DNA of 64,000 bases, taken from positions 5,324,858 to 5,388,857 of the forward strand of contig NC_087075.1 of NCBI RefSeq assembly GCF_026151205.1. Reading direction: 5' to 3'. A program made the translations under genes and the position numbers. The DNA comes from Bolinopsis microptera. Its lineage: Eukaryota; Ctenophora; Tentaculata; Lobata; Bolinopsidae. The notes below the pieces were generated by a model. It did not search any database. It saw only the letters and a program-made list of their open reading frames with translations, and was not told the origin of the DNA. Shown one piece after another: positions 36,301 to 64,000 of this stretch (the first letter of the stretch is position 1; each line of letters opens with the position of its first letter).

Positions 36301-39300
36301 TCATATCAAATCTAAAATATTGAAACATCACCATTTACTATAAAGACGACGTTTTATCACTATCTGACTGTGGTTCATTCGTTCTTATCACATTACTTAT
36401 TATTAGTGTATCGGAATACACAGCTGTCCTCTTATTTAGCACATCTATCTCTGTATTATTACTATCTCTTTCACTTTCACTATCTCTTTCTCTTTCACTA
36501 TCTCTGTCCCTTTCTGTTTCTGTTTTAACACCTTCACTGTTTATTTCTCCTCCTCTAAAAACTCCAGCCTCCAGTTCTATGACCTCCCCCTCGACCTGGA
36601 CTGGTTCTGGTGTCTTGTTGTTCAGTTTAAAGAGTAACAGTGCTAATAGTGCGAAAATCAGGAGGAGGAGAAGTGCGCCAAATACTTGAGACAGCGCCAG
36701 TATAAGTCCTGAAATAAATTAATTTTATTAGAGATTTAATGCGAAAAAACTGTTTCTCCTGAAAGTTACCAACGTCCTTAATGAAGAATCTCATCAAGTT
36801 ACTTTGAGATTGTATCGATATAGACTGGACTTTATGCGCAGTTCTCTGTTTCTACCGTGATGTTTAAAAAGATTTTCTGTGAAAACACTACCTTTGTTTT
36901 TGTCGTTAGGAATCGCTGTTCTAGGTTCGCCCGTCCCACCACCGTCTCCATCACCTTCTGTATCATCATCATCAACTTCCGTTCTTACATTGCGTAACGT
37001 TGTGGTACTATAAGTAAATACAGTAGTCCCCCTCGTCTCATCACCACTTCTAGAACTATCACGTGACTGTGAACTTGATGCCGTACTCCCGGAGTACCAG
37101 ATAGGTACTGGAGCTGAAGTGGTCGAGGATCCTGGGTCTGTCACGGTATGCTTAGTTTGGGTACCGGACCTTGAGTCTGTGTTCACTGCTGTACCAGTTA
37201 CCCGGGGTTGAGGTGTAGTTATCTCTGGTTGAGGGGTTGTGTTTTCTGGTTGAGTGTTTCCTGGTTGAGTGTGCTCTGGTTGAGAGGTGGAGGATCCACA
37301 GCGTCCTACGCAGGTGGCTTGAGTTGTATCTGTGGAGTGTATCTCTGTTGTTACCTTTTCCGGGGTAACAGCTTCAGGTTCTGTGGTGTTGCGTTTTTTA
37401 GTGTGAGACTTTGTGGTGTTATGCTGTAAAGTGCGAGGTTTGGTTGTATTACCACCGGAGGTTGCTGGTGGATGTTCTGTTGTATTACCACCGGAGGTTG
37501 CTGGTGGATGTTCTGTTGTATTACCACCGGAGGTTGCTGGTGGATGTTCTGTTGTATTACCACCGGAGGTTGCTGGTGGATGTTCTGTTGTATTACCACC
37601 GGAGGTTGCTGGTGGATGTTCTGTTGTATTACCACCGGAGGTTGCTGGTTGATGTTCTGTTGTATTACCACCGGAGGTTGCTGGTGGATGTTCTGTTGTA
37701 TTACCACCGGAGGTTGCTGGTGGATGTTCTGTTGTATTACCACCGGAGGTTGCTGGTGGATGTTCTGTTGTATTACCACCGGAGGTTGCTGGTGGATGTT
37801 CTGTTGTATTACCACCGGAGGTTGCTGGTGGATGTTCTGTTGTATTACCACCGGAGGTTGCTGGTGGATGTTCTGTTGTATTACCACCGGAGGTTGCTGG
37901 TTGATGTTCTGTTGTATTACCACCGGAGGTTGCTGGTGGATGTTCTGTTGTATTACCACCGGAGGTTGCTGGTTGATGTTCTGTTGTATTACCACCGGAG
38001 GTTGCTGGTGGATGTTCTGTTGTATTACCACCGGAGGTTGCTGGTGGATGTTCTGTTGTATTACCACCGGAGGTTGCTGGTGGATGTTCTGTTGTATTAC
38101 CACCGGAGGTTGCTGGTGGATGTTCTGTTGTATTACCACCGGAGGTTGCTGGTGGATGTTCTGTTGTATTACCACCGGAGGTTGCTGGTGGATGTTCTGT
38201 TGTATTACCACCGGAGGTTGCTGGTTGATGTTCTGTTGTATTACCACCGGAGGTTGCTGGTGGATGTTCTGTTGTATTACCACCGGAGGTTGCTGGTTGA
38301 TGTTCTGTTGTATTACCACCGGAGGTTGCTGGTGGATGTTCTGTTGTATTACCACCGGAGGTTGCTGGTGGATGTTCTGGGAGGTTGTCCAACAGTTGGC
38401 GTGGTAGCAAAAGGGTAGCTGTCGGTGATGTTACCCGTACACAACACTACCGCAGAGAACATCAGCAACAAAACGTACATCTTGAGGAGTGGAAATGATT
38501 ATTTTCTGTCTGTGTAAAAATCTACTCAACCTCCTGATTGCTTTAGTTGGAGATGGGTGAAATACGACCCATGGTATGATGCTGTGGTGATGTGATGGGG
38601 ACGTTACGATGTAGTGTTGAGTGATCTCTGTGACGTCATTGTGGTTAGCTGGAGGAAGCTAACACTACCATTTCTGGGCTTAGAACTGTTCATGTTTGCA
38701 ATCTCGTGCATATTTCTTTTTGTCACCCGTCGCGTTGTCATGACTTATTTTTCTACTCAAAGCACTGATTTAAAATTTATTGATAAGATTTATTTGGTAC
38801 ATTACCAAATCACCTTTGGGGCGTCGGAAATGACATATTGTCCTAAGGTGTGATGCAATGAAAATGTAGGAAAACAATAGAGTAATAGATAAAATGAACA
38901 GAAATTTAGCGAAAATATGGATATATTGAGAAACATTCAAACACCGATTTACCTCGGTTTAAAGTAATGTGCAAACATTATTTACTGGAACTTTCTTAAC
39001 TGAGCTTGATATTAAATATTTACTGAGCTAACTGTATATTTAACGTATCGGTATAGATTATAGATACCTGTTATCTTAAAGTATAGAAACCAAAATCCTA
39101 TAATCCGAAAATTTATCCAAATTTGAGATTCCTGAAGAGCCCGGCTACAATAGTATCACACCATAAAATAAACGTTAAAATCAAGCTGCTAGTTTCGTAT
39201 GCACTATTGTCAAGCTAGGCATTGAAATTAAAATGCACGTGCAACCAACGAGTATCAAATAAAACACAATAGAATAATAATTATTGATATTCTGAATATC

Positions 39301-42300: not shown

Positions 42301-45300
42301 AAACAAATTAAATAATTAATTAATTAATTAAGCTAATCAACTAATTTCCCAGGTGCGAGTGTACGTAGCGCTGTACAGTGGCAAGAACCGTCTTGAACAG
42401 CTCGTTACGTGTGAGAAACCCATAACTTCTGTTATTGAATGGAATGAAACACTTACTTTCAAGATAAATATTTCTGATCTGCCCAGGTAATAGATATTTT
42501 CAGGTAATAGATATAGGCATTCAAAATTTTAGGAAATTAAGATGTTTTAAGACATTGTAAAAAAGTATTCAATGTTCTGACTCATTTAAAAAAAACAAAT
42601 AACAGTGTTGTTGACCCAACCGTATTTAAACTAACAAACCCAACGAACAGGAACGCAAAACTCTGTTTTTCAATACAAAAACGTCGTAAAACGGACGACA
42701 CAAAAAAGAAGAACAAACAAAACGCAGCAGACGAGCAGATTATAGTACCCAGCAAGTCAGCTAACCTGTATTGGATTAACCTGACTGTGTTCGATTTTAA
42801 GGGCACTCTGAGGCAGGGTAAGTTGCTGGACGTAATGACGCGCACTGTTCACTTGTAAAACATGTGTTATTTTGTTACAACGCCGATTATTGTGAAGGAG
42901 TCGTTTACTTTAAGGGGAGATACACCAAAACCGTTTTTGCTCCGAACATCGATTTTATTTTATATTATTTTTAAATAGACAAAAAGAATAAGATTGTACA
43001 CCTTCAAAAATTTTAAAAAATATTCCCTCCTCGAGAAAAAAAATATTTTTCTTTTTCGAAAATTTTTAAAATTTGGAGAAGTCTGTCACTGTAATACCGA
43101 TAGTTCGGCCATTTAAAAAGTTTTTTGGCTGATTTTTTTACTGAACATTACTTACACTCCGTACTAGAAGCCATTGAAAGGATTATATAATTGAACAATA
43201 AATGACCAAGTTACAGACCGAACAAGGTGAAAAAAGAAAAATTGGGATTTTTGCCTATCACCAAAGTTGTACATTTCACCACCCGCCCAGGTCATCAGAT
43301 ATCGCTTCAAAAATTCTTGTGAGTGTAGTTAATGATCATGGCAAGCTTTTTGGAACCGGATTTCTCTCAATTTTGAGTTTTAAGCTATGCAATGTGGCCT
43401 CAAACGACTTAGTAAAATTCATCGTAAAAAAGGGCAAAAAAGGCAGATTTAAGGCTTAAAATGCCTATAACTCAAAAAGTATCAGTTTTTTTGAAATAAT
43501 TTTTACAGGATCGTAATCAGCTTGGTAAGACGAATCTTTTAGTACCAAATAGGTGCTTTTAGAAGACAAATTGTCTTAAATAATTTTCTAGCTCGAACAC
43601 AAGGGTCCCCCCTTGTATAAATTTTGTACAAATTATACACATTTTTTTACAAATTTTGTGGCTTTGAATATTATAAATGTCGTACTAAAAGATTCGTCTT
43701 ACCAAGCTGATTACGATCCTGTAAAAATTATTTCAAAAAAACTGATACTTTTTGAGTTATAGGCATTTTAAGCCTTAAATCTGCCTTTTTTGCCCTTTTT
43801 TACGATGAATTTTGAAGTCGTTTGAGGCCACATTGCATAGCTTAAAACTCAAAATTGAGAGAAATCCGGTTCCAAAAAGCTTGCCATGATCATTAACTAC
43901 ACTCACAAGAATTTTTGAAGCGATATCTGATGACCTGGGCGGGTGGTGAAATGTACAACTTTGGTGATAGGCAAAGATCCCAATTTTTCTTTTTTCACCT
44001 TGTTCGGTCTGTAACTTGGTCATTTATTGTTCAATTATATAATCCTTTCAATGGCTTCTAGTACGGAGTGTAAGTAATGTTCAGTAAAAAAATCAGCCAA
44101 AAAACTTTTTAACTGGCCGAACTATCGGTATTACAGTGACAGACTTCTCCAAATTTTAAAAATTTTCGAAAAAGAAAAATATTTTTTTTCTCGATGAGGG
44201 AATATTTTTTTAAATTTTTGAAGGTGTACAATCTTATTCTTTTTGTCTATTTAAAAATAATATAAAATAAAATCGATGTTCGGAGCAAAAACGGTTTTGG
44301 TGTATCTCCCCTTAAGGGTACTCTAAGGCAATGTACGCTGTCTTGAGATTTAGATTGGTTTTCGATTCTATTTGAACTCGTGTTTATTCATATTTGATGC
44401 TTTTTGATAAATAGTCTGGTTGATTCCCCAACGTATTAATGCTCAGAACTTCGCTGTTTTTTGTAGCGACTTTTTTCCCTTGTGTCATAAGGGCACGTAC
44501 ATCCAATCAATTAGATAACCAATTAATCAACAACATGTTGTCAACCCCCTGCTGGCTGCTTTAGTAACAACGATCAGTTTCACTAGTTGAATATTATGTA
44601 CATAACAATCACTTATATTTGTACTGACAAGACGTCATGAATCATTGTCATGGATTATTAGTTAAATATTACCCAAATTGTATAAAGTCACACAATACTT
44701 CCTTGTTTTAAACTAAGCACAATTCCGTTATTAATACCAAGGTTATAAAAAATTAAAAAATGTTTCCTTGTGTTTAACAAACCACTGACAGGAGCTATAG
44801 AACAACATGTTTGGACGGACCTGAGATCAGAGAGTGGATTCAACTACACCGGACCTAGCTTCCCATACGGGCTTTCTGACACACCCATATTTACAGTATG
44901 AGCCTTGTTTTCTGCTTTTAATTTTTATAAGGACAAATTCATATTCCTTCTCCCATTATTTCCACTTCCCTAGACCGAACATTCACTGTGTATGTTCTAA
45001 CCACCACCCCTCTCCAGGTGGAACTACCAGAAAGCAAGTCCCCAGTAAGGTTCTACCCACTAACCACCACCCATCTCCAGGTGGAGCTACCAGAAAGCAA
45101 GTCCCCAGTAAGGTTCTACCCACTAACCACCACCCCTCTCCAGGTGGAGCTACCAGAAAGCAAGTCCCCAGTAAGGTTCTACCCACTAACCACCACCCCT
45201 CTCCAGGTGGAGCTACCAGAAAGCAAGTCCCCAGTAAGGTTCTACCCACTAACCACCACCCCTCTCCAGGTGGAGCTACCAGAAAGCAAGTCCCCAGTAA

Positions 45301-48300
45301 GGTTCTACCCACTAACCACCACCCCTCTCCAGGTGGAGCTACCAGAAAGCAAGTCCCCAGTAAGGTTCTACCCACTAACCACCACCCCTCTCCAGGTGGA
45401 GCTACCAGAAAGCAAGTCCCCAGTAAGGTTCTACCCACTAACCACCACCCCTCTCCAGGTGGAGCTACCAGAAAGCAAGTCCCCAGTAAGGTTCTACCCA
45501 CTAACCACCACCCCTCTCCAGGTGGAGCTACCAGAAAGCAAGTCCCCAGTAAGGTTCTACCCACTAACCACCACCCCTCTCCAGGTGGAGCTACCAGAAA
45601 GCAAGTCCCCAGTAAGGTTCTACCCACTAACCACCACCCCTCTCCAGGTGGAGCTACCAGAAAGCAAGTCCCCAGTAAGGTTCTACCCACTAACCACCAC
45701 CCCTCTCCAGGTGGAGCTACCAGAAAGCAAGTCCCCAGTAAGGTTCTACCCACTAACCACCACCCCTCTCCAGGTGGAGCTACCAGAAAGCAAGTCCCCA
45801 GTAAGGTTCTACCCACTAACCACCACCCCTCTCCAGGTGGAGCTACCAGAAAGCAAGTCCCCAGTAAGGTTCTACCACTAACCACCACCCCTCTCCAGGT
45901 GGAGCTACCAGAAAGCAAGTCCCCAGTAAGGTTCTACCCACTAACCACCACCCCTCTCCAGGTGGAGCTACCAGAAAGCAAGTCCCCAGTAAGGTTCTAC
46001 CCACTAACCACCACCCCTCTCCAGGTGGAGCTACCAGAAAGCAAGTCCCAGTAAGGTTCTACCCACTAACCACCACCCCTCTCCAGGTGGAGCTACCAGA
46101 AAGCAAGTCCCCAGTAAGGTTCTACCCACTAACCACCACCCCTCTCCAGGTGTAGCTACCAGAAAGCAAGTCCCCAGTAAGGTTCTACCCACTAACCACC
46201 ACCCCTCTCCAGGTGGAGCTACCAGAAAGCAAGTCCCCAGTAAGGTTCTACCCACTAACCACCACCCCTCTCCAGGTGGAACTACCAGAAAGCAAGTCCC
46301 CAGTAAGGTTCTACCCACTAACCACCACCCCTCTCCAGGTGGAACTACCAGAAAGCAAGTCCCCAGTAAGGTTCTACCCACTAACCACCACCCCTCTCCA
46401 GGTGGAGCTACCAGAAAGCAAGTCCCCAGTAAGGTTCTACCCACTAACCACCACCCCTCTCCAGGTGGAACTACCAGAAAGCAAGTCCCCAGTAAGGTTC
46501 TACCCACTAACCACCACCCCTCTCCAGGTGGAGCTACCAGAAAGCAAGTCCCCAGTAAGGTTCTACCCACTAACCACCACCCCTCTCCAGGTGGAGCTAC
46601 CAGAAAGCAAGTCCCCAGTAAGGTTCTACCCACTAACCACCACCCCTCTCCAGGTGGAGCTACCAGAAAGCAAGTCCCCAGTAAGGTTCTACCCACTAAC
46701 CACCACCCCTCTCCAGGTGGAACTACCAGAAAGCAAGTCCCCAGTAAGGTTCTACCCACTAACCACCACCCCTCTCCAGGTGGAGCTACCAGAAAGCAAG
46801 TCCCCAGTAAGGTTCTACCCACTAACCACCACCCCTCTCCAGGTGGAGCTACCAGAAAGCAAGTCCCCAGTAAGGTTCTACCCACTAACCACCACCCCTC
46901 TCCAGGTGGAGCTACCAGAAAGCAAGTCCCCAGTAAGGTTCTACCCACTAACCACCACCCCTCTCCAGGTGGAGCTACCAGAAAGCAAGTCCCCAGTAAG
47001 GTTCTACCCACTAACCACCACCCCTCTCCAGGTGGAGCTACCAGAAAGCAAGTCCCCAGTAAGGTTCTACCCACTAACCACCACCCCTCTCCAGGTGGAG
47101 CTACCAGAAAGCAAGTCCCCAGTAAGGTTCTACCCACTAACCACCACCCCTCTCCAGGTGGAGCTACCAGAAAGCAAGTCCCCAGTAAGGTTCTACCCAC
47201 TAACCACCACCCCTCTCCAGGTGGAGCTACCAGAAAGCAAGTCCCCAGTAAGGTTCTACCCACTAACCACCACCCCTCTCCAGGTGGAACTACCAGAAAG
47301 CAAGTCCCCAGTAAGGTTCTACCCACTAACCACCACCCCTCTCCAGGTGGAGCTACCAGAAAGCAAGTCCCCAGTAAGGTTCTACCCACTAACCACCACC
47401 CCTCTCCAGGTGGAACTACCAGAAAGCAAGTCCCCAGTAAGGTTCTACCCACTAACCACCACCCCTCTCCAGGTGGAGCTACCAGAAAGCAAGTCCCCAG
47501 TAAGGTTCTACCCACTAACCACCACCCCTCTCCAGGTGGAGCTACCAGAAAGCAAGTCCCCAGTAAGGTTCTACCCACTAACCACCACCCCTCTCCAGGT
47601 GGAGCTACCAGAAAGCAAGTCCCCAGTAAGGTTCTACCTACTAACCACCACCCCTCTCCAGGTGGAGCTACCAGAAAGCAAGTCCCCAGTAAGGTTCTAC
47701 CCACTCCTCACTGCCCGGAACTTGGCACTACAAGATACCGGACCTGGGTCACTGAGTCAGGCGGAACAGAGTGAGCTGACAGTCGCGGAGAGAAGGAAGT
47801 TGGAGACTCTACTGAACCACTCATTTGGGACTTATCAGGTTTGTAACTACAAGACATCACATGTTCACAACTACAGACAAGAGCCCGTCTTTTGTGTGCA
47901 AAAGCTTTCATGCTCGCCTATTTCTTGACCCTTTAGTTTTCTGTCTCTATCCAATTAGCAGTCAAGGAAAAAAGTCATGCACCAAATGGGCAATTGTTAT
48001 TAATTTGTTAATTCTGTAAAATGTGCTAAGAATATTAAATTTCTTGTTTCACCGAAATTTTTTATTTCATTGGAATGTTCTATTGTAACCAGTCACTCTT
48101 ATTTATATTAACATGATTAAATGATAGCCAAATATACAATGAAAATGTACAAGAAAAAGTCTTACTATTCAAAAAATCATCATTTGTACATAATTCTACA
48201 TGCATCAGTTGACAAAATCATCGTTTAATCGATTCTTATCTATTCTTTGCAAAAAATAAATAAATAGCCATAATGGATAGCCTGAAAAATGAAATATAAA

Positions 48301-51300
48301 AACTTGAAAATTACAACTTAAATTTTAAAAAGACAACAGATATAAAATCCCAAAAAATAGGGCGGAACAGGTTAAAAAAACAGAAAGTCCATGCAACAAA
48401 ATATACAGCAAGCCACTATGAGCTCTACATCAAGCTGATAAAATCGACGATAAAATATACATTGCAGTTGGTTATTCACTCACTCACACTGCATCATTAT
48501 TAATCATAAACCACACCGTCCACCAATCACCAATCACCAATGGTCATAACCGGTTGGCGACTGATGAGGAGTATGATAAATTATTAACAATTCTGAGGTT
48601 CTCAGCTGTTCAAGTTTTAAGCAGTACAGCCATTTTGAAATAAGAGGAAGGGAAGCTTATTAATGAGGCACTGAGGTTACTACTTAGTACCTCAATAGCT
48701 ACTTCATTAATAACTTAAAGTGCAATTTAAGTACCAACAGCGTTGCTTCAGCTAATATTCTCATTTAAACAAAGCCTACATTAAATTCTCTACTAATGAC
48801 ATAATTTCCTTGGAACCTTTATTCATAATAGTGATGGTTGTTTTAAAATACTGTTTTGCTTAACTTTAAAGAATATTAGCTTTATATATAGAACAGTTTC
48901 CGAATGCCAAAACTTAAAATAAAACTTACAGCATATTTTTTTAAACTACAGCTTCGTCTCGAACATAAACCCTAACTGGGACGTCAAGTTTGCTTGGCTT
49001 TCTTTGCTTTCCTCTTGATCAGCATCACCACCCTTTATATCCTGAACCTCAGCTTTTTTTGGTTCTTGGAGCTGATCGGCATCTTCACTGTTTTTCTCTT
49101 GACCCTCAAGTCCGTTTTCTTCTTGCCCAATGTTTTCTTCTTTGCCAGTGTTTTCATTGTTGCCCTTATCGTACTCATCATAGTCATCAGTATCTTGACT
49201 GTTTTCCTCTTGAACTTCTTCGGTTTTTTCACTGATTTTCTCTTGAGCTTCTTCTTGAATTTTACCATTTCCTTGCACCCTTATCACATCTTCGTTTTCA
49301 TTACCATACTCAGCGTCCTTAAGATCTATTTTTATCTCATTATTTTTCTCTTGAACCTGATCTCCCTCTTCCGTCGATGTTGCCTTTTCAATTATCTTCG
49401 GACCGTTTTCAACATCTTCATAGATGACACCTTCATCTTCTTTTGGGTCAGTTGTGTAATTTTGAGCAGTAGTTGTGTAACAGTTTGACACAGCAGAAGA
49501 AGCCTGAGTAACACTTGCTTTACCTCCCTTCTTTTGCTCCACACCTAACAAAGCAAGGGTGTGACCCCAGACATCTTCTTGCAAAAGTGCCATGCCAATA
49601 AACAACAGAGGTCCCTGGAGGCCAGTCATCACAATAAAGAGATATTGCATGACCACAGCTCCCGGACCAACTGCCAGAGCTATTACAACCCACGGACACC
49701 CAACTGATACAGCTACCAACGCCATAGCCTTTGCAGTCTTCGCCAACTTTGGATCACCACCACCAGAGGTTGATGATTTCCAGATGACCCTGGCTATCAT
49801 TACAAAAGACACGCAGTTAAAGAGAAGGATACTGTATGCTGGCACCATAAACCCCAGAAACCTCCACGGATCTTCAACCCAGCAGTTAGTCCCGTTCTTT
49901 CTAGCTGCTCCGATGTAAGGTACAGAGTAGTCATCCCCGTTCATTGAAAGTGAGGTTAAGAAGGCTGCCAATGGGAATACTAGGGGAAACAACCAACTTA
50001 GTGCTGTGCACTTGTGAATAAAAAACTTGTCTTTCTTTCCGTAGCTCTTCAATGCCATCACTATCTTCCCGAAGAAGGTCCAGGCAGTGCAACCCATCCA
50101 ACAAAGTGCTGACAATAAGAAGTATTGTGTGATGATGACCCCTACAACACATCCCGTGTTCAGTGACAGAAGAGGGTTTCCAGCCTCGTCCACACTGATT
50201 TTAGTGGAAGCAGAGAGACATGTAAATGATACGTTACCTAGAATTAGAGCTAGGATGAGATTCAGCTGGATCAGTACTACTTGTTTGCTTCGGAGCTTCT
50301 TGAACGGGGCTATCAGACAGAAAGTTAGAACCAGGAAGATTATGTTTATCCCAAACATGACATAGCTAATAACATCCTGGGTTGGGTCTGTTACTTTAGT
50401 CGGGCTGAGCAGGACTGCAAAGCTAGTGGTGTGGGTGCAGGTGCAGGTGCAGGTTTTGTCTTGTTGGAGAGTTGTTGTGCAGCCGTCAGTTAGCCACTCG
50501 TTAGTTGAGATGTTCAGGTAGCCACACTCTCTCTTGGTGGTGTATCCGGGGAGATTGGGGACTTCTTTTTCCTGGAAAATCAAAGAGAAGTCCAGGTCGT
50601 TTCTTTCTATTTCGCTGTTCGTGTTCATGAAGTTGAGCGACACTATAGAGGAACCTACGGTTGTGTTAGGAGTCTTGGGTATTGGCAGGATACTTTTGTA
50701 GGATTCGTCCATGACTGCAAGCTTGGTGGTTTTCCCTTTTTGGTTTCCTAACTTGAGTGTGATGGGGGGAGCGGTGTTTGGGACTTTGATGGACAGTTCT
50801 TCTTCTGATGAAGTGAGAGATTGCATAACAATCGAGTTGGTATTGATAGTCATGTCATCTTTTAAAGACTTTGACATTGTCTCCAAAATGTCTATAATCT
50901 CCGATTTCTTTTCATCAGCTAAAAAATCAGGTTCACCTTTTTTCAAGATTTCCATAGATTTTGCCATGCTCAAACTGAGATCCTCTACCTCTTCAGATGA
51001 GTAGTCTTTAATGTAGTTTTTGCACGCTGAAAGAAGGTCGACTATGTTACCAACATCACTGGGAGACGGGATCACTTCATCACCAATTTCAGCTATTGAG
51101 CCCATAGCTTTCCCCAACTCTTTTTTATTTTCTTCAAACGATAGTTCGGCAATTTCTTTTGCATCTTGAGTGTACTTTGATAGAGGGGTACTACAACTTT
51201 CTGTGTTGGTGTACGAGTCCCATTCACCTGAAGCCTCGCACATCTTGTACATTTTCTGACTTTCATTCTCTGTGCCCGAACAGCTTACTATACCAGTGCT

Positions 51301-54300
51301 TCCTGCTGAAGTTTCAGGAAACTCTATTTCTTCTCCTCCATTCAACCATGATATCTTAACTTTGATAGCACCACACTTTGCACCTGCCTGTATATCACAC
51401 TGGGTTCTATCTGGGGTAACTGTTCCTGCACAAGACATGCACCGAGTTTGTTGAAAGTAAGGTTGGTATTCAGATGCATCACAAGGTTTGCAGTTGGGTC
51501 CCAATCCCCCGTTCTGCGAGAACCAGCCTGGATTGCAGGGAGCTGAAATTGTGTGTTTATTTTTATACTCATACTATATTATTTATAATGCTTACTACAC
51601 TCTTTAAAAATTCACAGGCTAACTCGGGACGTCAAGCTTTAACTCTATCCCACAGGGGGATTTCGTAACCGAGAAGAATATAGTATTTTGAATGAGTTCT
51701 CTCAAATAAAGGACCACTTTAAATGCTTGTAATATGATTTGTTATTGAGAGGAACAAATACTGTATAATGCATGATAAAACTTACCTGTGCATTCTGTTC
51801 TTTCCTCGTTAGAAACCGTTCCATCAGCACAGACTTTACAGCTGCTTTCTCCTGACTGTCCTGTCTGATCATTGTACTTCCCTGCAGGACACAGCTCACA
51901 ACTTGTCATACTAACTTCGTACTGACCCTGTAACAGCAGATAAATAACACACACTAATAATAATAATATTTAAACTCAAGAAAAAACACATTGAGTAAGT
52001 GAGCGGTAACAAGATGAACGGAAATTTTAAAAATAAAATAAGAAACTAACCACGGGGCATTCTGTGCAAACAGACGCTCCAGCAGCAGACATCCATCCAG
52101 AATCACATGGAATACAGTCGTTGTCAGATATCCCTCGTCTCTCACCAGCAGGGCAGTCTTCACAAGTATTACCAGTACTATCTCGTATCTTGCCCTGGTA
52201 TTTAGCTTATAATTAGCAAGGCCAAACACAATAACAGTTAATTAGTTTACAGTTGAAATAAGAAAATTACAGTTCGAGATATTATTATTCCACTTACCAC
52301 ATCACACATCAGACATTCTATTTTGTCCGTGGTGTACTCCTTCATATGAGTGCAGCTGTGACAGTAGTCCGAACTCTCTGCTGTGTTACGGGTTCCGTCC
52401 GGGCAATCTCTACATTCAACTTTGGTGCATGTTGAGGGATCAGTTACAGCGACAGCAGTGGCAGACGCTCGTTCAGGGTTAGCAGGATAGTTGCAGTCCG
52501 CATCAACGCCTTCTGCATAATATTCCTGTCCCTGAAAGAAAGAACAGGTTTCAATATACAATAAGATAAGTAAAAAGCTAGGAGTCCTCCATCTCTGAGA
52601 AACCGAAATATTAATTGTCATTATCAGAAACTTCTCTGAACACAATAGCAGTCTTGCAAAAAGGATCTACAGTGAAATAAACAACTAAAACCCAAATTAA
52701 GTATATCATTCGGGGTCGTTCACATAATATTACGCAATCACTTTTTGAACAATTTTTAACCCCCCCCCCCCCCCTCCGTTATCAGTTTTACACATAGTTA
52801 TTGTATCAAAATTACACTAGCGTAATCATTTGGAAACCTCCCCCCTCCCCTCGGCTGATTACGTAATATGTGAGCAACCCCTGAACCCCTTATCACCACT
52901 CTTAAAGTACTCACAGCTGGACACTTAACGCAAGTTCCTTTGTCAGCGAGGATAACTGTCGGAGCAGCACACGACTGACACTCGTTCATCTTCTTGTGGT
53001 ATATTGTCCTCGTGTAGAAGATCTTCTTCTCTTTGTTGTCACACTGGGTGCAAGCTTTAGCTTGTTCTGGGTCTGAAGTGAAGTCTGTTCGTGCGTCGTG
53101 TGAACCTGAGATGAGAGGGACATATTTTCTTTAGTGCTCTTGACATTGAGGTTCAGATCAGATCACAAATCGTTTGAAGATCCCTATTATAACTTAATTA
53201 CACTACAGTGTACTTTCTACTGATTCAATTGAATAAACAATAAATATTTTGCATTAAAGCCAGAGTAGAAATTGTTAATAAAAGAAGATTGTGGGCTGTA
53301 CATACCATCATCACAAACTTTACAGCCATCTCTTGCCGTGTCACTGTGGGTACCAGTGTCTGTGTTGTAGTATCCCAAACCGCAGGGATAGGTTGCTGAA
53401 ATTAATTAATTAATTAATTAATCAATTAATTGATTACTTTGTTAGCATATTATTCTAGAGGTGTTATTCTGGTTTATCTCATGAGTAAAACAGTTGTAAT
53501 ACTAGATATTAGAGATAAGTACTAAGTAGATACAAATGTGTTATTATGTTCTTCATAGTCATTTGAGACCTTGGCTGACCCAACTTACCCCAAGTTTTTC
53601 CGACCACGACAACTTCAGCAAGCCCTCCTGACCCAGATTGGCGATCCCACATGATGATGACTTCTGTTGCAGCAAGTCTTTCCTGGCAGACGAACTCGTA
53701 ACTATCCGTACCTTCACTAGAATTGTTACCGGCTGTACATGGGACCTCTTCAGTCAGGTTATTGTACTGGGCATCTGATTTTTGGGCACTTGTGTCTTTT
53801 ACGTACACCTGAAATATGAGCTTGTCAGCAACATTGTCTACAAAAAGACGATGTTATCATTTTTAAGTTGAATTAAATTTCTCTGGAAATGATATTTGTA
53901 AAAGCATCTTCAAATCTCCTATAGTTTCTGTAATGTGTTACACACAATATGATTACTATTGTTATTACCTTCCACCCTGCAATGGAGATGTCAGTGCTTG
54001 TTGCAGAGAGGATAACTTTGTAGATCCCTTGCCTTTGCCACCATTTAAAAGTGAACGGTGCGTCATCACTGCTCACTGTCCTTTCCAAGTTCATATCTTT
54101 TAATATACCGTCGTTGCCATTAATGATTTCGGCAGTTGTTCCAGAGAGATTCTCGAATCCGTTCAAGTCTGGTTGGGGTTTTTAATACTTCAATAGCGAG
54201 AAAATAATATTAGTTCAGATAAAATCGCAAATGAAGCTTCATAATCAATCAGTCAAACGTGCTGATTCCTCGGGCTATTTAATTAACATTGCTCTTGAGG

Positions 54301-55442
54301 GTAGTTTTTATTTTGCCCCCATTTGTATTGGTGATACCGCTAGAAATTATGAATCCTGTAAGGACTTAATGCATCAAACTGTATATTCAACAACACCCAG
54401 CTAAGGTATTAATAGCCACTGACAGTAGTTCTCCAGTTTCCTCTGAACGTTTCACTTTCAGCTTGTTATATTGTTGAGACTACATCGTCTCAACAATATA
54501 GACAACTCACCACATTCAAACCCCTGTTCATTGTAAAATCTACAACTTCCACGAGCGCAATTGTGTAAAATAAATAGTAGGATTCAAATTAGAGGGCTGG
54601 ATGTTAAAATAGGGAGCTAAGGTTGAAACGGCAAAACGCGGCTACGGCTGTGATGTACCTGACAGTACATGAAAAAGCACATCTTGGCAATGCGCCAATA
54701 AATTATAACAATAACCCCCCTCCCCCCCCCCCCCCCCCACCCAGATGATATCTTGGCAATGCGCCAATAAATCATACAATAACACCCCCCAGATGACGGA
54801 GGAAGATAACAACTTCCTGTGGAAGAACCGAGTCCACTGCAGATCCTACCCTCACTCCCTCCCCAAGCTCGTGTTGTCCACCAGTATGGACTCTTTGGAG
54901 AAGTCCACCCAGCTCTATACTCTGCTATTAGATTGGCCTCCTATCAGTGTGGTTACTGCGCTGCAGTGTTTTCTGCATGAGATAAATGACCCTCATATTA
55001 GGGAGGTAGGTTGTGATTTTAGGAGAAATTTAAATTTTGTTTGTATTAATTAATTGTTTAATTAATTAATAAATATTGACATTCTTTGTATACCCTGTTA
55101 GAAACAGCCGAACCAGACATTTTTTGCCGAACGCGAACAAACCGAACCGAACTTTCAGTTTAAAACAAAAATGTGTTTCCTAATACATTGCTTGGTGTTT
55201 TGGCTCAATCATAAAGACTGGATCCCATATTGCAAAGTACAGCAAAATATCACGACTATAGTAATAGTATTAGAACATAATATTACTATTAACATTTGAA
55301 ATTTTGATGATATTTTATTATCCTTTCAGTTTGCAGTGTACTCACTCGACACACTGCTACCGGACGATATGGTCTGCCTATACCTGTTACAGTTAGTAGA
55401 GTGTATCAAATACGACCTGTACTTGGACTGTGCACTTACACG
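30329..55442 (+). CDS. Class IA PI3-kinase catalytic subunit (p110), 5' two-thirds
   Basis: Fifteen exons give 685 codons and run off the window before the kinase domain: 30329-30481, 30804-30870, 31842-31960, 32214-32339, 32742-32934, 33058-33147 (both ends uncertain), 33190-33332, 33482-33644, 39536-39630, 42353-42486, 42651-42817, 44792-44895, 47662-47838, 54793-55005 and 55330-55442. The order is p85-binding (ADVDVLLPIPKGIMISV-like), Ras-binding (YLLKISGCEDYLFEDKLIL, YIQDCIRDNRIPDLIL), C2 (VRVYVALYSGK, WNETLTFKINISDLPR, LYWINLTVFDFKGTLRQG) and helical/PIK (DNNFLWKNRVHCRSYPHSLP, LLLDWPPISV, QLVECIKYDLYLD). The adaptor-binding domain marks class IA; I cannot separate alpha, beta and delta. 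It phosphorylates PtdIns(4,5)P2 at the membrane downstream of receptor kinases and Ras. Its introns host antisense genes and a 63-bp array straddling the acceptor of exon 47662. Confidence 0.93.
30512..30531. repeat. PolyG tract (20 G) in PI3K intron 1
   Basis: A run of 20 G shortly after the first PI3K exon. No matching polyC tract or inverted repeat was found within the intron. Confidence 0.95.
30871..31841. other. PI3K intron 2
   Basis: About 1 kb of intron apart from the 10-bp repeat. Loosely repeated phrases (ATTCAGTCAAAA near 31543 and 31712) suggest a degenerate local duplication. No exon or gene is seen. Confidence 0.4.
31022..31090. repeat. 10-bp tandem repeat GTGAGGGAAA
   Basis: Six or so units of AAAGTGAGGG in PI3K intron 2, with donor-like GTGAG in each. 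Confidence 0.85.
32342..32418. repeat. 38-bp tandem duplication after PI3K exon 4
   Basis: A unit containing CTCCTTATATGGGCATCACG followed by TGTAGT occurs twice, starting a few bases after the donor at 32340. Confidence 0.85.
34256..35296 (-). pseudogene. Carbohydrate sulfotransferase (CHST8-14-like) with one in-frame TGA
   Basis: A single minus-strand frame of 347 codons is interrupted only by TGA at 35068-35066. The N terminus MMISLKFYKSVFILIALCFS is a type II Golgi signal-anchor. After the TGA come IPKTGCSHWKELF (5'-phosphosulfate-binding loop) and ALRNPWVRAVSAYRQKL (3'-phosphate-binding motif), the two PAPS-binding signatures of the Sulfotransfer_2 family. The frame then continues to a normal-looking C terminus. 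Length agrees with Golgi enzymes that sulfate GalNAc or chondroitin chains. It has no introns and lies antisense in the PI3K 33644-39536 intron, so it may be a retrocopy. Either it is a recently broken gene, a readthrough gene, a sequence error, or translation starts at MNIVFTGIPK (35026) without the anchor. Both halves look well conserved. Confidence 0.75.
35638..35659. repeat. PolyG tract (22 G)
   Basis: A 22-base G run between the sulfotransferase and mucin genes, inside the PI3K intron. No polyC partner was seen. Confidence 0.95.
36338..38480 (-). CDS. Single-pass transmembrane mucin-like protein
   Basis: Three minus-strand exons join in phase: 38480-38435 (signal peptide MYVLLLMFSAVVLCT), 38376-36892 and 36709-36338. 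The 58-bp first intron is inferred: splicing it turns the signal-peptide end directly into the repeat phrase TEHPPATSGG. The ectodomain has about 26 tandem copies of TEHPPATSGGNT (some with Q for P), rich in Thr/Ser/Pro and NTT sequons, then a Thr/Pro-rich region (TTPQPEITTPQP) and an acidic patch. The last exon gives a hydrophobic helix (LILALSQVFGALLLLLIFAL) and a cytoplasmic tail with an RDSERERDSESERD stretch. It would be a heavily O-glycosylated cell-surface protein. I recognise no named orthologue. It sits antisense inside a PI3K intron beside the sulfotransferase. Confidence 0.82.
37448..38376 (-). repeat. 36-bp coding minisatellite of the mucin
   Basis: About 26 units of 36 bp, nearly identical, with a recurrent GGTGG/GGTTG variant giving P or Q in TEHPPATSGGNT. 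The units leave several frames open on both strands; only the Thr/Pro/Ser frame is continuous with the signal peptide and transmembrane exons. Such homogeneous arrays are usually polymorphic in length. Confidence 0.95.
38481..39535. other. Mucin 5' flank within the PI3K intron
   Basis: No gene is seen. The minus-strand promoter of the mucin should lie just right of 38480. The plus-strand ORFs at 38614-38853 and 39307-39498 have no recognisable features. Confidence 0.4.
40082..40700 (-). mobile_element. Degenerate CR1/jockey-like LINE fragment
   Basis: Minus-strand frames, shifted against each other, read RLVYLSLMSLQRRRERFIIL, MWKILHGKTSNDLNV and then FAVQGPKLWNAIPYYLNV. This is the C-terminal region of a CR1/jockey-type reverse transcriptase, broken by frameshifts. 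It lies in the PI3K intron 39631-42352. Confidence 0.82.
40776..41102. mobile_element. PolyG/polyC-bounded element, second copy type
   Basis: Starts with 27 G and ends with 19 C. Just inside, CAACCATATTAAAGTATAT and ATATTAAAGTATATTAAAGTATATG form a loose inverted repeat. AAAT precedes the G run (with a following G) and follows the C run, a possible 4-bp target duplication. It has no ORF with family likeness and is about 330 bp. The body sequence is unrelated to the 24562-24951 insert, but the layout is the same. Confidence 0.75.
41690..41765. repeat. AT-rich tandem repeat (TGTACTATATATGTATAGTG)
   Basis: Three copies of a 24-28-bp unit containing GTACTATATATGTATAGTGT in the PI3K intron before exon 42353. 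Confidence 0.85.
42910..44315. mobile_element. 1.4-kb foldback element bounded by TTAA
   Basis: Two arms, 42910-43545 and 43682-44315 (about 635 bp each), are inverted copies differing at only a handful of positions (for example CTCCTCGAG versus CTCATCGAG, GCCATTTAA versus GCCAGTTAA and a small indel near 43410), separated by a 136-bp loop. Both ends read TTAA followed by GGGGAGATACACCAAAAC, so TTAA is the probable target duplication, as for piggyBac- or Kolobok-type elements. The mirrored ORFs at 43202-43459 (+) and 43775-44023 (-) resemble no known protein. It lies in the PI3K intron between exons 42651-42817 and 44792-44895 and would fold into a long hairpin when transcribed. Confidence 0.93.
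44998..47704 (+). repeat. 63-bp exon-edge minisatellite in the PI3K C2 region
   Basis: About 43 head-to-tail units of 63 bp. Each consists of an intron end (CACCACCCCTCTCCAG) followed by the first about 42 bp of the next PI3K exon (GTGGAGCTACCAGAAAGC...). The last unit runs straight into unique exon sequence at 47704 (LLTARNLALQ). Every unit thus has an acceptor and, 27 nt later, CCCCA-GTAAGG, a strong donor match in phase 0. Sixty-three is divisible by three, so the frame is open over long stretches (46213-47838). Two 1-bp deletions (about 45875 and 46049) and a TAG at about 46153 close the earlier part. Units differ mainly at one position (GGAG/GGAA). Confidence 0.97.
47839..48945. other. 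PI3K intron, 3' flank of the adhesion GPCR
   Basis: AT-rich DNA between PI3K exon 47662-47838 and the stop codon of the antisense GPCR. It should contain the GPCR 3' UTR. No further gene is seen. Confidence 0.45.
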
Positions 55443-57591
55443 GTTAGTTTTATAGTTCTTTCAATCAAATTTCTGATTGTTTCTGAATAGACTCAGTGAA
55501 GACAGATTCTAATGGAAATAAATAGCTGAATAATGTATCGACATTTCTCCGTCATACTCATATTCTCAAATTATTTGTTATATAGTAGTGTTTAAAGTAT
55601 TAAAAAGAAAGAAGTTCTATCAAATTATGCGACTCAATAACACTACACGAATCCACCAGGTTAGTATTTTTCGCTGATAACTCGTCAGGGATGCATTTTA
55701 ACCCTATGTCATCTGGAGTGAATCAGCGTTCAAAAGTATGTTTCAGTGTAGAGTGATTAAGCACGCTCGCCAAAAATAGATGTGACGCATCATGTCGAAG
55801 AATACAATATTTTAGTCATAAGTTTTACGTAGTTACAAGTTTTATACACTATATACTAGTAAACTATATACTATACTAACCGTCTTAACCGTCTTAAAAT
55901 ATTCTCTTAATCTAATGTAGCTTTAAAATATATAGCTAAGTATAACTCATGAAGCTGCGACATGGTATAAATTGATAGGTTTCTGAATAATATCTGGTAA
56001 AACAACATTTAAAGATCTATGAGTTCAATAGATTACCTGATAGTAATTGGTCGATGATCACTATTTCAAGCACTTCGACATATACCTTCCCATTAGCTGT
56101 TATTTTTACAGTGTCTCCAAGTTTACACCCAGAGGGGACATAGTCTCCAGAGACCGTGTTTTCATGGTACACTGTGAGGGGCCACTCATCACAATAGACT
56201 CCCTCACAGGTACACGTGTCACTAGAGCAGGTGTGAATTCTCTTGTGAAATGAGGACCAATAATGCACTACCTGCTTAATGCAGTGTACCTTATCTAGAG
56301 ACGCTCTAAACCAGGCATTACTATACCCTCCTGGTACTGCCCAAGCCCGGGTGTTCAGGTCCCTGTCTATAGCATTATCTACTCCCAAATTAACCACGTC
56401 ATTATCCCGAGTCGCAGACTGAGACACAGACGCAGGTTTTATCTCTCCTGATTCCTCTGGTCTTAGAGCACCTGAAGTAGTGAAAACTTCACATTGTTAT
56501 CATACTGTTTTCAATCGGTCAAATTAGGAAAAAATCTGGATTTTACCTCATGATTATAACCAAACTTGTATAAATCCTGAAATTGGAGAACTTACTCAAA
56601 TCTAATGGAGTAATGGCACTAATAAATATCATTCAAAGTAGAGATATAACCATTAATTCAAGTGTATCATTGATTCACTTTTACCTTTGAGGGGGGACCA
56701 AAGCAATGTCGTAATGATGATCAAGGTTGTCCCGTCATGTTCGGGTTTCATTTGTCTTAATATCCTAATATATGTAACTTATTAGAAATTATTTGCCTTA
56801 TATTTAATATTTTAACAAAAGTTATGTTTTGATGTTTAATGAGTAATGACCTGATGGCATTTTAACACAAACCAATATTTTACTTTTAACCATATGATAT
56901 CATATTTTTAACAAAAGATTGACTCTGGTAGTGCACCTGAAGTAGTGAAAAAAGTAGTGAACATTTTAAGAGATTGTCACATTGTAATTCATACTATTTT
57001 AATCAGTCAAATTAGGGAAATAGCGATTTGACTAAATTACAACCTGAATTATGTTAATAATAGAAGCTAATATATTCTTTCGAAGTACGTTTTTATCACA
57101 TCAAAAAAAATCCATCCCATCGAAAGACTAATACACAAAACATGCAACGTAATATGACAACAAAACCGAACAAAATGTTGCTCTAACATCTTTGCACTGC
57201 ACGTGCGCCTTGTCATATTCTCATATCCATTAGTACCAATAAGAGGAGGTTTAAAATAAAGATTCTCATTCATAATTCTATAACACCTTTACTTAATAGG
57301 CCATAGTTATCGTCAGAATCTTAGGAGGTTGCTTGAAATTCTATAAAATGTATATTTCAGATAATAATAAGTTTACTACTGTTAAAGTCTTGTTGAATCA
57401 TTATATTATAGGGTTACTCATAGGAGACGATAGCTATATAATTTATGTGCGATAGCTAAAAATGATTTGGTGAAAAAACAATAATTTGTCTAAAATATTT
57501 GTCGTTGTTTGACATTAAAGTACAAATTCTTACCGTTCGTATCAGCACTTGCAGTCCCAACAAAGAAGAGGAACAAAAACAATTTCAACAT
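48946..57591 (-). CDS. Adhesion GPCR with lectin-like and GCC2/GCC3-like repeats
   Basis: Ten minus-strand exons, in phase: 57591-57534 (signal peptide MLKLFLFLFFVGTASA), 56471-56037, 54168-53969, 53808-53589, 53395-53306, 53107-52915, 52531-52298, 52194-52051, 51927-51786 and 51542-48946, about 1.4 kb of amino acids in all. The first domain (DNAIDRDLNTRA, AWFRASLDKVHCIKQVVHY) resembles F5/8C or F-type lectin folds; a second galactose-binding-like domain spans 54168-53589 (FTFKWWQRQGIYKVILSATS). Then come Cys-rich modules (CELCPAGKYNDQTGQSGES, CEDCPAGERRG) of the GCC2/GCC3 type. The last exon has a GAIN-like domain, a GPS (CGYLNIS...CTCTCTHTTSFAVLL), seven transmembrane helices (about 49560-50400) and a long Glu/Asp-rich tail. 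A surface receptor with autoproteolytic GAIN is inferred; ligand unknown. Linking the two 5' exons to the rest is an inference from phase and order. Confidence 0.85.
50395..50480 (-). other. GPS cleavage motif of the adhesion GPCR
   Basis: The pattern Cys-x-Tyr...Trp-Leu-Thr-Asp-Gly-Cys...Cys-Thr-Cys-x-Cys-Thr-His-Thr-Thr-Ser-Phe matches the GPCR proteolysis site. Cleavage would fall between His-Thr and Thr. The canonical residue before the cleaved bond is usually Leu, and here it is Thr. The Cys-Thr repeats (CTCTCT) come from a GTGCAG triplet-like repeat at about 50438-50453. Confidence 0.75.
52712..52882. mobile_element. MITE with GGGGTCGTTCACATAATA termini
   Basis: Imperfect inverted ends: GGGGTCGTTCACATAATATT (52712) and TACGTAATATGTGAGCAACC (to 52882). 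The interior includes a 15-base C run at 52760. It is about 170 bp, non-coding, and sits in a GPCR intron between exons 52531-52298 and 53107-52915. Confidence 0.75.
53397..53432. repeat. (TTAA)n repeat at a GPCR splice acceptor
   Basis: ATTAATTAATTAATTAATTAATC lies directly upstream (on the minus strand) of the acceptor of GPCR exon 53395-53306. Confidence 0.85.
54681..54792 (+). repeat. 69-bp tandem duplication of a PI3K splice acceptor
   Basis: ATCTTGGCAATGCGCCAATA through a C-rich tract ending CCCAGATGA occurs twice (from 54681 and from 54750). The second ends at the acceptor of PI3K exon 54793. The first has a 17-base polyC run at 54722-54738 and its own CACCCAG-ATGA, a decoy acceptor with the same first codon. 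Confidence 0.88.
55690..55775. mobile_element. Fragment of the telomere-like MITE family
   Basis: Read on the minus strand this segment matches the conserved block GTATTTTTGAGCGCTGAT...AGGGTTAAAATGC shared by the elements at 22715-23091 and 57729-58048. It ends with TGTAGAGTGATT, the terminal repeat of the 57.7-kb copy. The TTAGGG part is missing. Confidence 0.7.
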
Positions 57592-62625: not shown

Positions 62626-63390
62626 TCCTAATTTTAGAAGATTGGTGATTAACTGAGACAGATTAGAGGGACACACAGTACAGGGAGGTTTAAGCGATTA
62701 ATTTAATCATTATCAAATACAAATTCTAAACAAGGGATAGTTAAAACGAACATGCTAAATCACTCTACACTATGGTGGCCGAGGTGGGTCATTGTAAATT
62801 ATTTCAAAATAAATTTAGAAAACCAAAAAAAACCAAAAAATAACCAAACTTTTAAAAAATAAACCAAAAATAAATTAAAAAAAAACAAAAAAAAAACTAA
62901 ACTAAAAAAAACTTTAAAAAAACCAAAAAAAAAACAATTTAAAACAATAAAAAGCCAAAACAAAAAAAAAACAAAAAAAAATTTAAAAAAAACCAAAAAA
63001 AATTCAAAACAAAAATGAAATCGCTCCATATGGCCGAAATGTGCCATCAGCAGTCCTCACTGCGCGCCACAAAGAACGTACGTTGCGCGCGCGCGCAGAT
63101 GTCTACAATTGTACCAAATGGCGATCGCGCTAACGCGTGCTTATTGTTCCCTCACGTGTAGTCTGATCCAGTTATTATTATCCACCTATTATTGTACTTC
63201 AGGTGAAATATATATGGCATACCGATAAACTCCTGTATTTGACGTGTGATTTAAGCGTGCTTGAAAACGACTGCAGACATTAGGTTATTGAGATTGAGTT
63301 CAGCATCTTGCCCGGCCCCATTGGCCGGACAAATCTCTATATAAATTTGTGTTCAAAGTTGGGAGATTACTTGGGCTTTTTATATTTTGT
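62626..63390. other. 5' flank of the duplicated GPCR module
   Basis: The start (62626-62780) is homologous to 57592-57745, the flank of the first module, so both may share promoter elements. A CpG-rich patch with a GCGCGCGCGCGC run lies at 63060-63095. No gene is seen. Confidence 0.5.
62815..63016. repeat. A-rich low-complexity tract
   Basis: About 200 bp of AAACC/AAAAAC/AAATAA words, with the strong strand bias of a degraded polyA or A-rich minisatellite. The minus-strand F-rich ORF across it is meaningless. Confidence 0.85.
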
Positions 63391-64000
63391 AGGATGATGT
63401 TAGCAGTGAAACAAAAATGTCATCAAAGTCAATAATTTAATAATCAGACCCATATATAAAACAACCAAGTATATGTTATAATTTAACAAAACATTGTAGT
63501 AGGATGATGTTAGCAGTGAAACAAACATTTTATCATAATAACTTACTTCGTATTCTAATCCTTAGAAAAGAATTGTACCAACTTTATAATTTACGGAGTT
63601 TAACATTTAAACTTTTAAGTTAACTTGAAATCCTTATAACATGATTTTATGGGTAATGGCTGGCTGTACCGAAGAAAAAACAGTACAAAAACCAACAGAA
63701 GAATCAAACCCACATATAAAACAACCAAGTAAATGTTATAATTTAACAAAACATTGTAGTTCTGCTAAAAAGAATTCAATGTTAAAATTTAATGTTAAAA
63801 ATTGAATGTTAAAAATCTAAAAATCAATTTCATGCGTTTAATCGAGGTTTAAATGTGTTTAACCAACCAAGTAAATGTTAAAACAACCAGGTAAATGTTA
63901 TAATTTAACAAAACATTGTAGTTCTGCTAAAAAGAATTCAATGTTTTAATGTTAAAATTTAATGTTAAAAATTGAATGTTAAAAATCTAAAAATCAATTT
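63390..64000. repeat. Irregular AT-rich repeat cluster
   Basis: AAATGTTATAATTTAACAAA with ACATTGTAG recurs near 63472, 63731 and 63892. AGGATGATGTTAGCAGTGAAAC occurs near 63393 and 63502. TTAAAAATTGAATGTTAAAA occurs near 63795 and 63965. It runs off the right edge, inside the PI3K intron. Confidence 0.8.

Follow-up and report, generated by a model that had tools for sequence, protein, structure and literature searches.

Acceptor array in a PI3K gene

Which acceptor would a transcript use if the end of one intron and the start of the next exon were repeated 43 times in tandem? The question is raised by a 64-kb stretch of the Bolinopsis microptera genome (C4:5324858-5388857, the window; coordinates refer to it unless given as C4: or L), drawn from an assembly of 264,652,675 bases in 232 contigs, where a minisatellite lies across the 3' splice site between exons C and D of a PI3K gene. 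Judging from the sequence, we think it probable that this is a young minisatellite born of a duplication across the acceptor, most likely removed whole through the last acceptor, with some leak.

Tandem Repeats Finder (TRF) reported a single array at 44997-47705, with a period of 63, 43.0 copies and 99% matches. A unit-by-unit split resolved 43 head-to-tail units at 44997-47703, of which 41 measure 63 bp and two (units 14 and 17) 62 bp, in keeping with the head-to-tail units of about 7 to 100 bp that characterize minisatellites. A first-pass annotation of this DNA had proposed a minisatellite of about 43 copies inside a PI3K gene, and both copy number and host were confirmed; the array lies where that annotation put it (44998..47704), with its ends displaced by at most one base. 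Each unit, CTAACCACCACCCCTCTCCAG/GTGGAGCTACCAGAAAGCAAGTCCCCA/GTAAGGTTCTACCCA with the divisions marking the acceptor and then a cryptic donor, consists of 21 bp from the end of intron C-D and 42 bp from the start of exon D. This composition, the phase-0 junctions and the coordinates of exons C, D and E had all been given correctly. The array and its altered units are as follows.

44997..47703, plus strand: minisatellite of 43 units, each CTAACCACCACCCCTCTCCAG (intron end) followed by GTGGAGCTACCAGAAAGCAAGTCCCCAGTAAGGTTCTACCCA (exon start); TRF, unit-by-unit split and assembly search.
45816..45877, plus strand: unit 14, 62 bp, CCC shortened to CC within the 36-nt mini-intron portion; unit split.
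46004..46065, plus strand: unit 17, 62 bp, CCCC shortened to CCC within the 27-nt coding piece, a frameshift; unit split.
46129..46191, plus strand: unit 19, GAG changed to a TAG stop in the PI3K frame (G25T); unit split.
47578..47640, plus strand: unit 42, C62T, changing the branch motif of the last acceptor to TACTAAC (47639-47645), 1/43; motif count.

Thirty-one of the 43 units are identical to the consensus. Seven (1, 21, 22, 24, 28, 37 and 39) carry G27A, which is synonymous in the PI3K frame, and five have private changes, namely C14A in unit 2, the one-base deletions of units 14 and 17, G25T in unit 19 and C62T in unit 42. Both deletions shorten a C run, a type of change that residual sequencing error also makes, and they may therefore be errors of the consensus. 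An assembly-wide search with the unit (264.65 Mb) returned 43 matches, every one inside the array; this search skips very common words, and its single-locus result falls short of proving uniqueness. The array is real and no product of chance, and the near-99% identity of its units says that it is either young or homogenized.

Host gene

Six exons of the host gene were delimited in the window.

42353..42486, plus strand: exon A, start of the C2 domain, beginning with GT after CAG; PF00792 on 42332-42490 (E 6.1e-8), splice ends and phase.
42651..42817, plus strand: exon B, C2 domain; splice ends, colinear with p110 beta in the PDB alignment.
44792..44895, plus strand: exon C, donor ACA/GTATGA (5/9); splice ends, colinear in the PDB alignment.
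47662..47838, plus strand: exon D, its first 42 nt being the exonic part of unit 43; splice ends and PDB alignment.
54793..55005, plus strand: exon E, PIK/helical domain; PF00613 (E 4.5e-12) and splice ends.
55330..55442, plus strand: exon F, PIK/helical domain; tblastn with human p110 delta and splice ends.

When joined, exons A-F share one frame, and their 304-residue product passes the cut-offs for both PF00792 and PF00613. Compared with PDB sequences, it matches p110 beta at E 5.5e-34, with alpha and delta nearly as good; the best 58 of the 60 matches listed (97 in all) are p110 subunits or a p85-p110 fusion, and the last two are class II. By these comparisons, the host of the array is a class I-like PI3K catalytic-subunit gene. 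Exon D by itself gave no match, being too short or divergent, and a tblastn search of 162 kb upstream with a human p110 delta query gave no convincing match to the Ras-binding or adaptor-binding domains, which are weakly conserved parts.

With exon C joined to 47662, the match to p110 beta, alpha and delta runs uninterrupted across the junction and leaves no space for a unit. A product resembling other PI3Ks thus uses the last acceptor, as the first-pass annotation had held when it assigned the normal protein to that site.

Splice signals and reading frame of the units

Each unit carries a CTAAC branch-point-like motif (second A 18 nt ahead of the exon), a pyrimidine tract, CAG/GT and the cryptic donor GTAAGG. 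Both GTAAGG and CTAAC...CTCTCCAG are present in the units, and the spacing from acceptor to GTAAGG is the predicted 27 nt in 42 of 43, with unit 17, at 26 nt, departing from the earlier description of every unit. The unit acceptor is 75% pyrimidine over 20 nt, compared with 60, 40, 50, 60 and 75% for the acceptors of exons A, B, C, E and F, and its CTAAC is placed much as that of exon B. Among the donors, the unit's CCA/GTAAGG agrees with the consensus at 6 of 9 positions and exon C's ACA/GTATGA at 5, while exons A, B, D and E score 7, 8, 7 and 7.

At all 43 acceptors AG is followed by GT (CAG/GTGGAG or CAG/GTGTAG). Taken as a donor, the exon-start GT has 6/9 consensus positions in place (CAG/GTGGAG) and 4/9 after joining to exon C (ACA/GTGGAG), so that, by consensus count only, joining exon C to an acceptor does not rebuild a good 5' splice site and recursive ratchet splicing looks weak.

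Both splice junctions are in phase 0 and 63, 36 and 27 are all multiples of three, so most mis-splices keep the frame: it is preserved by unit retention, by unit-to-unit splicing and by skipping of the array, except via damaged units. Arithmetically, each retained unit adds 21 residues; splicing from a unit donor to an acceptor m units on removes 63m - 27 nt (36, 99, 162 ...) and leaves VELPESKSP; and splicing from AG/GT to AG/GT removes 63m nt with no trace left. The 9-residue mini-exons foreseen for unit-to-unit splicing therefore hold as arithmetic, but a 36-nt intron is not the sole route to them, as the donor may pair with an acceptor at least two units on (99, 162 ... nt). Intact VELPESKSP pieces number 41/43, unit 17 being one base short and unit 19 containing a stop. 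Acceptors 20-43 (24/43) are open and in frame to 47838, in agreement with the earlier claim that 46213-47838 is open throughout. That two 1-bp deletions and a TAG limit use of the early units was also borne out insofar as all three are present and acceptors 1-19 run into a stop, with the reservation about C runs already made for the deletions. Depending on the acceptor, intron C-D would measure 122 nt (first) or 2,766 nt (last).

46213..47838, plus strand: stop-free stretch in the PI3K frame, running from acceptor 20 through exon D and covering 24 acceptors; frame reading.
44896..47661, plus strand: intron C-D if the last acceptor is used, 2,766 nt (122 nt with the first acceptor); exon ends and frame reading.

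Strong donors were compared with acceptors 20-300 nt away in the masked 304 kb around the window, and no clear peak for very short introns emerged over scrambled donors (sums over 30-79 nt, 32 versus 22.2 with scrambled donors). RNA structure was rejected as a driver of site choice: four units fold worse than their shuffles (-48 versus a shuffle mean of -54 kcal/mol, z 1.49), which equal or surpass them in 191 of 200 cases. The array was likewise rejected as a minus-strand gene, since a unit length divisible by three is all that keeps the reverse frame open.

Branch motif of the last acceptor

Compared from 63 nt ahead of the exon start to 42 nt past it, the last acceptor and most of its rivals differ by one base, C62T of unit 42. 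The branch heptamer is CACTAAC at 41 of the 43 acceptors, TTCTAAC at the first and TACTAAC at the last. TACTAAC is the sequence with the best pairing to U2 small nuclear RNA. This feature, found at 1/43 acceptors, goes beyond the first-pass annotation; as a mark by which the last acceptor might be singled out it is a lead, short of proof.

Downstream exons and an inverted copy

Three further exons lie outside the window and are given here in its coordinates: G from 99796, H from 113809, and I at 114172-114231, which ends in GDDLRQ. On the plus strand, searched as far as C4:5508857, no catalytic-loop, DFG or neighboring exons were found. The minus strand has a partial copy of the gene in inverted orientation, with E, F, G, H and I and then catalytic exons including YVLGIADRHPSNIM...VDFGHILG at C4:5559157-5559050. 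It forms part of an inverted partial duplication of the locus and of an adhesion G protein-coupled receptor (GPCR) sequence within it (51475-55600 against C4:5593418-5604441, minus strand), with 87-95% identity in the matched pieces. No second copy of exons A-D, which would have allowed comparison with and without the array, was found by a search with B-D and, for A, by family search.

Synonymous and nonsynonymous base differences between the two copies stand at 6:1 in exon E, 6:0 in F, 1:2 in G, 5:0 in H and 1:0 in I, or 19:3 in total (P 2.5e-9 against a neutral expectation of 75% nonsynonymous). The 3' end of exon G is unsettled and its one changed codon counts as two bases; without it the ratio is 18:1 (P 2.1e-10). 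If one copy is instead modeled as neutral (60% assumed), P for 19:3 is 1e-5. Non-coding columns near the shared exons differ by 3-9%, and longer stretches show 87% identity. Given this synonymous excess the gene looks recently constrained, and the plus copy would thus have been under constraint in exons E-I until recently. Recent purifying selection on the host gene makes a tolerated array plausible.

The place of the catalytic exons takes up 2,098 bp in the minus copy and 2,351 bp in the plus copy, where the sequence is 39% A, 39% C and 3.5% G.

L016:416-2766 (window coordinates 114416-116766): G-poor stretch in place of the catalytic PI3K exons, with one-base additions in its downstream flank.

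After this stretch comes a remnant of the last kinase exons, out of frame and full of one-base additions. Over its 402 columns, extra bases occur in the plus copy in 33 gap events (25 of one base) and the other way in 9; control alignments gave 14:9 in 1,247 columns, 4:5 in 818 and 3:0 in 296. We read the G-poor stretch, with doubt, as poor consensus. The doubt has two sources: sequence poor in G or C turns up three more times in the 304 kb, once as a true minisatellite, and segments of the G-poor stretch have matches at 64-84% elsewhere.

Origin and splicing of the array

The array is flanked by TATGTT/CTAACC on the left and CTACCCA/CTCCTC on the right; these sequences indicate that the duplication joined exon position 42 to an intron point 21 nt ahead of the exon, and only CT is common at the joint. 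From the observed array, its place, its motifs and phases, and the conserved protein on either side, we infer its origin, mechanism of growth, choice of acceptor and level of leak as follows. A 63-bp tandem duplication across the 3' splice site of intron C-D would have taken along branch-point motif, pyrimidine tract, CAG/GT and the opening 42 nt of exon D as a single block, which ordinary minisatellite growth would then have amplified to 43 copies. In mature mRNA, exon C would mostly be joined to 47662; the array would leave with a single 2,766-nt intron, and the C2 domain would stay as it is. Position would favor this last acceptor, since it yields the normal 177-nt exon D, and its TACTAAC branch motif perhaps does so too. 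Upstream acceptors would probably see low-level use: in-frame insertions in multiples of 21 residues would result from the last 24, insertions in multiples of 9 from pairing of the internal GTAAGG with an acceptor farther along, and a premature stop from the first 19 unless the damaged units were spliced out. The arrangement looks like an extreme version of a known route to new introns.

Several points weigh against this account. An intron-definition regime would favor the first acceptor, with its 122-nt intron and a product containing a stop. The internal unit donor (6/9) outscores the real donor of exon C (5/9), which makes unit-to-unit splicing a live possibility. TACTAAC comes down to one base difference, spotted in hindsight, and the window contains the heptamer 14 times over both strands. 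The selection test covers exons E-I and leaves out exon D and the array. Finally, the array-bearing copy, having no recognizable catalytic-loop exons on the same strand, might be decaying, and in a decaying copy acceptor choice need not be maintained.

That last point can be taken further, to an array that is a tolerated accident in a gene copy already losing function, where acceptor choice is irrelevant. We consider this unlikely. The catalytic-loop and neighboring exons are indeed absent from the plus strand as far as C4:5508857, 2,351 bp with 3.5% G stand in their place, and what remains of the last kinase exons is out of frame, while the inverted minus-strand copy has the missing exons; yet exons E-I differ by 19 synonymous to 3 nonsynonymous bases between copies, and the odd stretch resembles poor consensus, with 33 versus 9 gap events in 402 columns. 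Distinctly unlikely, in our estimate, is a working isoform generator, in which acceptor choice and unit-to-unit splicing would insert blocks of 9 or 21 residues (VELPESKSP, or VELPESKSPVRFYPLTTTPLQ) in varying number ahead of the final C2 strand and array length would tune the mixture. Every unit does supply an acceptor, a 27-nt piece (VELPESKSP intact in 41/43) and a donor as good, by consensus count, as the gene's weakest real one; the frame is kept however units join, the last 24 units are free of stops and frameshifts, and stochastic splicing in AG/GT arrays has a precedent in UBC (PMC10809524). The insert, however, would fall within a folded, conserved domain, units 14, 17 and 19 bring stops and frameshifts, and there is no sign that the array is old or conserved, its roughly 99% identity saying young or homogenized.

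A bolder possibility, which we hold to be very doubtful, is a self-propagating splice module: since every 63-bp unit holds a full set of acceptor, 27-nt exon and donor in phase 0, the array can grow with the gene unbroken, and PI3K isoforms would depend on copy number, with 9n + 21m extra residues in the C2 domain and TACTAAC kept to hold the standard isoform. Were this true, the array would represent intron birth in progress, at a many-copy intermediate stage. Improbable to a still greater degree is that the copy number, or the array itself, is an assembly artifact. In favor of an artifact, run-length loss of C accounts for two of the five private changes, and the wider locus includes a partial duplication in inverted orientation, a palindrome of 15.8 kb that looks perfect, and the suspect stretch. 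Set against this, the 2.7-kb array sits in a 16.3-Mb contig with no N in the 304 kb examined, its private unit changes are scattered in a way unlike simple stutter, and two neighboring true-looking arrays are of similar size.

Overall, removal of the array through the last acceptor is the explanation we retain. The geometry set out in the first-pass annotation was right and, subject to the adjustments given above, every sequence-level statement tested held. Its interpretation, that the array either supplies tunable isoforms or is neutral and put up with because splicing settles on one site, is partly supported.

Relation to known systems

Choice of the spliceosome among identical acceptors has usually been studied with few engineered copies; here there are 43 natural, near-identical ones, the last differing by one base. 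The normal product of the gene is known, and the site to which exon C is joined would test position against branch-site strength.

A 1995 title in Nucleic Acids Research names a minisatellite with multiple splice donor sites, reportedly borne by IFI6/G1P3. Going by that title, many splice-site copies are present as here, but they are donors, not acceptors with a branch point.

The closest precedent, in which the same event appears to have happened once, is the potato RdRp gene PGSC0003DMG402000361, where one tandem duplication across a 3' splice site, together with a cryptic exonic GTAAG donor, created a new intron (PMC4974935). As in the PI3K array, branch site, pyrimidine tract and CAG were inherited and a cryptic GTAAG-type donor lies inside the exon; the potato intron arose from one duplication and is backed by 106 RNA-Seq reads, whereas here there are 43 copies, and unit-to-unit splicing would, unlike in potato, involve an intron of 36 nt. 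The array would be a serial version of intron creation by duplication across a splice site. In fission yeast, 24-bp exonic tandem duplications have introns across copies, as recounted in PMC4974935; there too short units serve serially as splice sites, with the difference that the unit is an exonic AGGT repeat in few copies.

The tandem AG/GT array of UBC splices stochastically to variable repeat number, as observed by reverse transcription-PCR (PMC10809524). The PI3K array shares with UBC and VCX3A an AG/GT in each tandem unit and a unit length that is a multiple of three, so that removal of whole units is frame-safe. The UBC unit is wholly coding (228 nt), whereas one third of the PI3K unit (21/63 nt) is intron end in the standard product; the PI3K array thus has the AG/GT per unit of a UBC-type dual-specific array without a wholly coding unit, and unlike UBC it has far more copies and a poor donor in its exon-start GT. 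At the edge of an exon, the variable-number tandem repeat of ABCA7 intron 18 shows repeated donor use that retains one unit and an array length that correlates with splicing (PMC5954066); there a 25-bp unit repeats the donor side and breaks the frame, while here the acceptor side is repeated and the frame kept. The C. elegans intronic minisatellites of PMC4039745 carry regulatory motifs, not repeated acceptors. A literature search, with most subscription papers outside its reach, found no acceptor array of this copy number. What sets this array apart is its copy number, a unit complete with acceptor, exon and donor, a geometry that spares the frame, and the single-base change in the branch motif of the last acceptor.

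Other repeats and neighboring features

In the 304 kb around the window, TRF returned 22 non-overlapping arrays with a period of at least 20 and a copy number of 5 or more; in 8 the copy number reaches 20 or more. The PI3K unit is alone among the 22 in combining acceptor-, branch- and donor-like motifs on a single strand. With minisatellites this common, similar cases straddling splice sites are to be expected; extrapolated from this one region, there would be thousands of such arrays genome-wide, and a few lying across a splice site would be unsurprising.

An array at 37443-38379 consists of 26 copies of a 36-bp unit with 98% matches and by eye gives a repeated Thr/Pro-rich stretch on the minus strand. 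A spacerless inverted repeat of 15.8 kb, with arms 99.2% alike and its center near 70675, runs from 62771-64000 to window coordinate 78579 (L011, L012) and is either a recent palindrome or a fold-back assembly error. Intron B-C holds a 1.4-kb hairpin-like inverted repeat (42910-44315, 94%), probably a mobile element. About 150 bp just after exon F (55448-55600) recur, among the matches listed, at many genomic places with about 90-97% identity, as a dispersed repeat. Nested in intron D-E on the minus strand is the adhesion GPCR exon (7tm_2, GPS; 48946-51573), with relatives on C4, C5 and C8 that share about 70% DNA identity.

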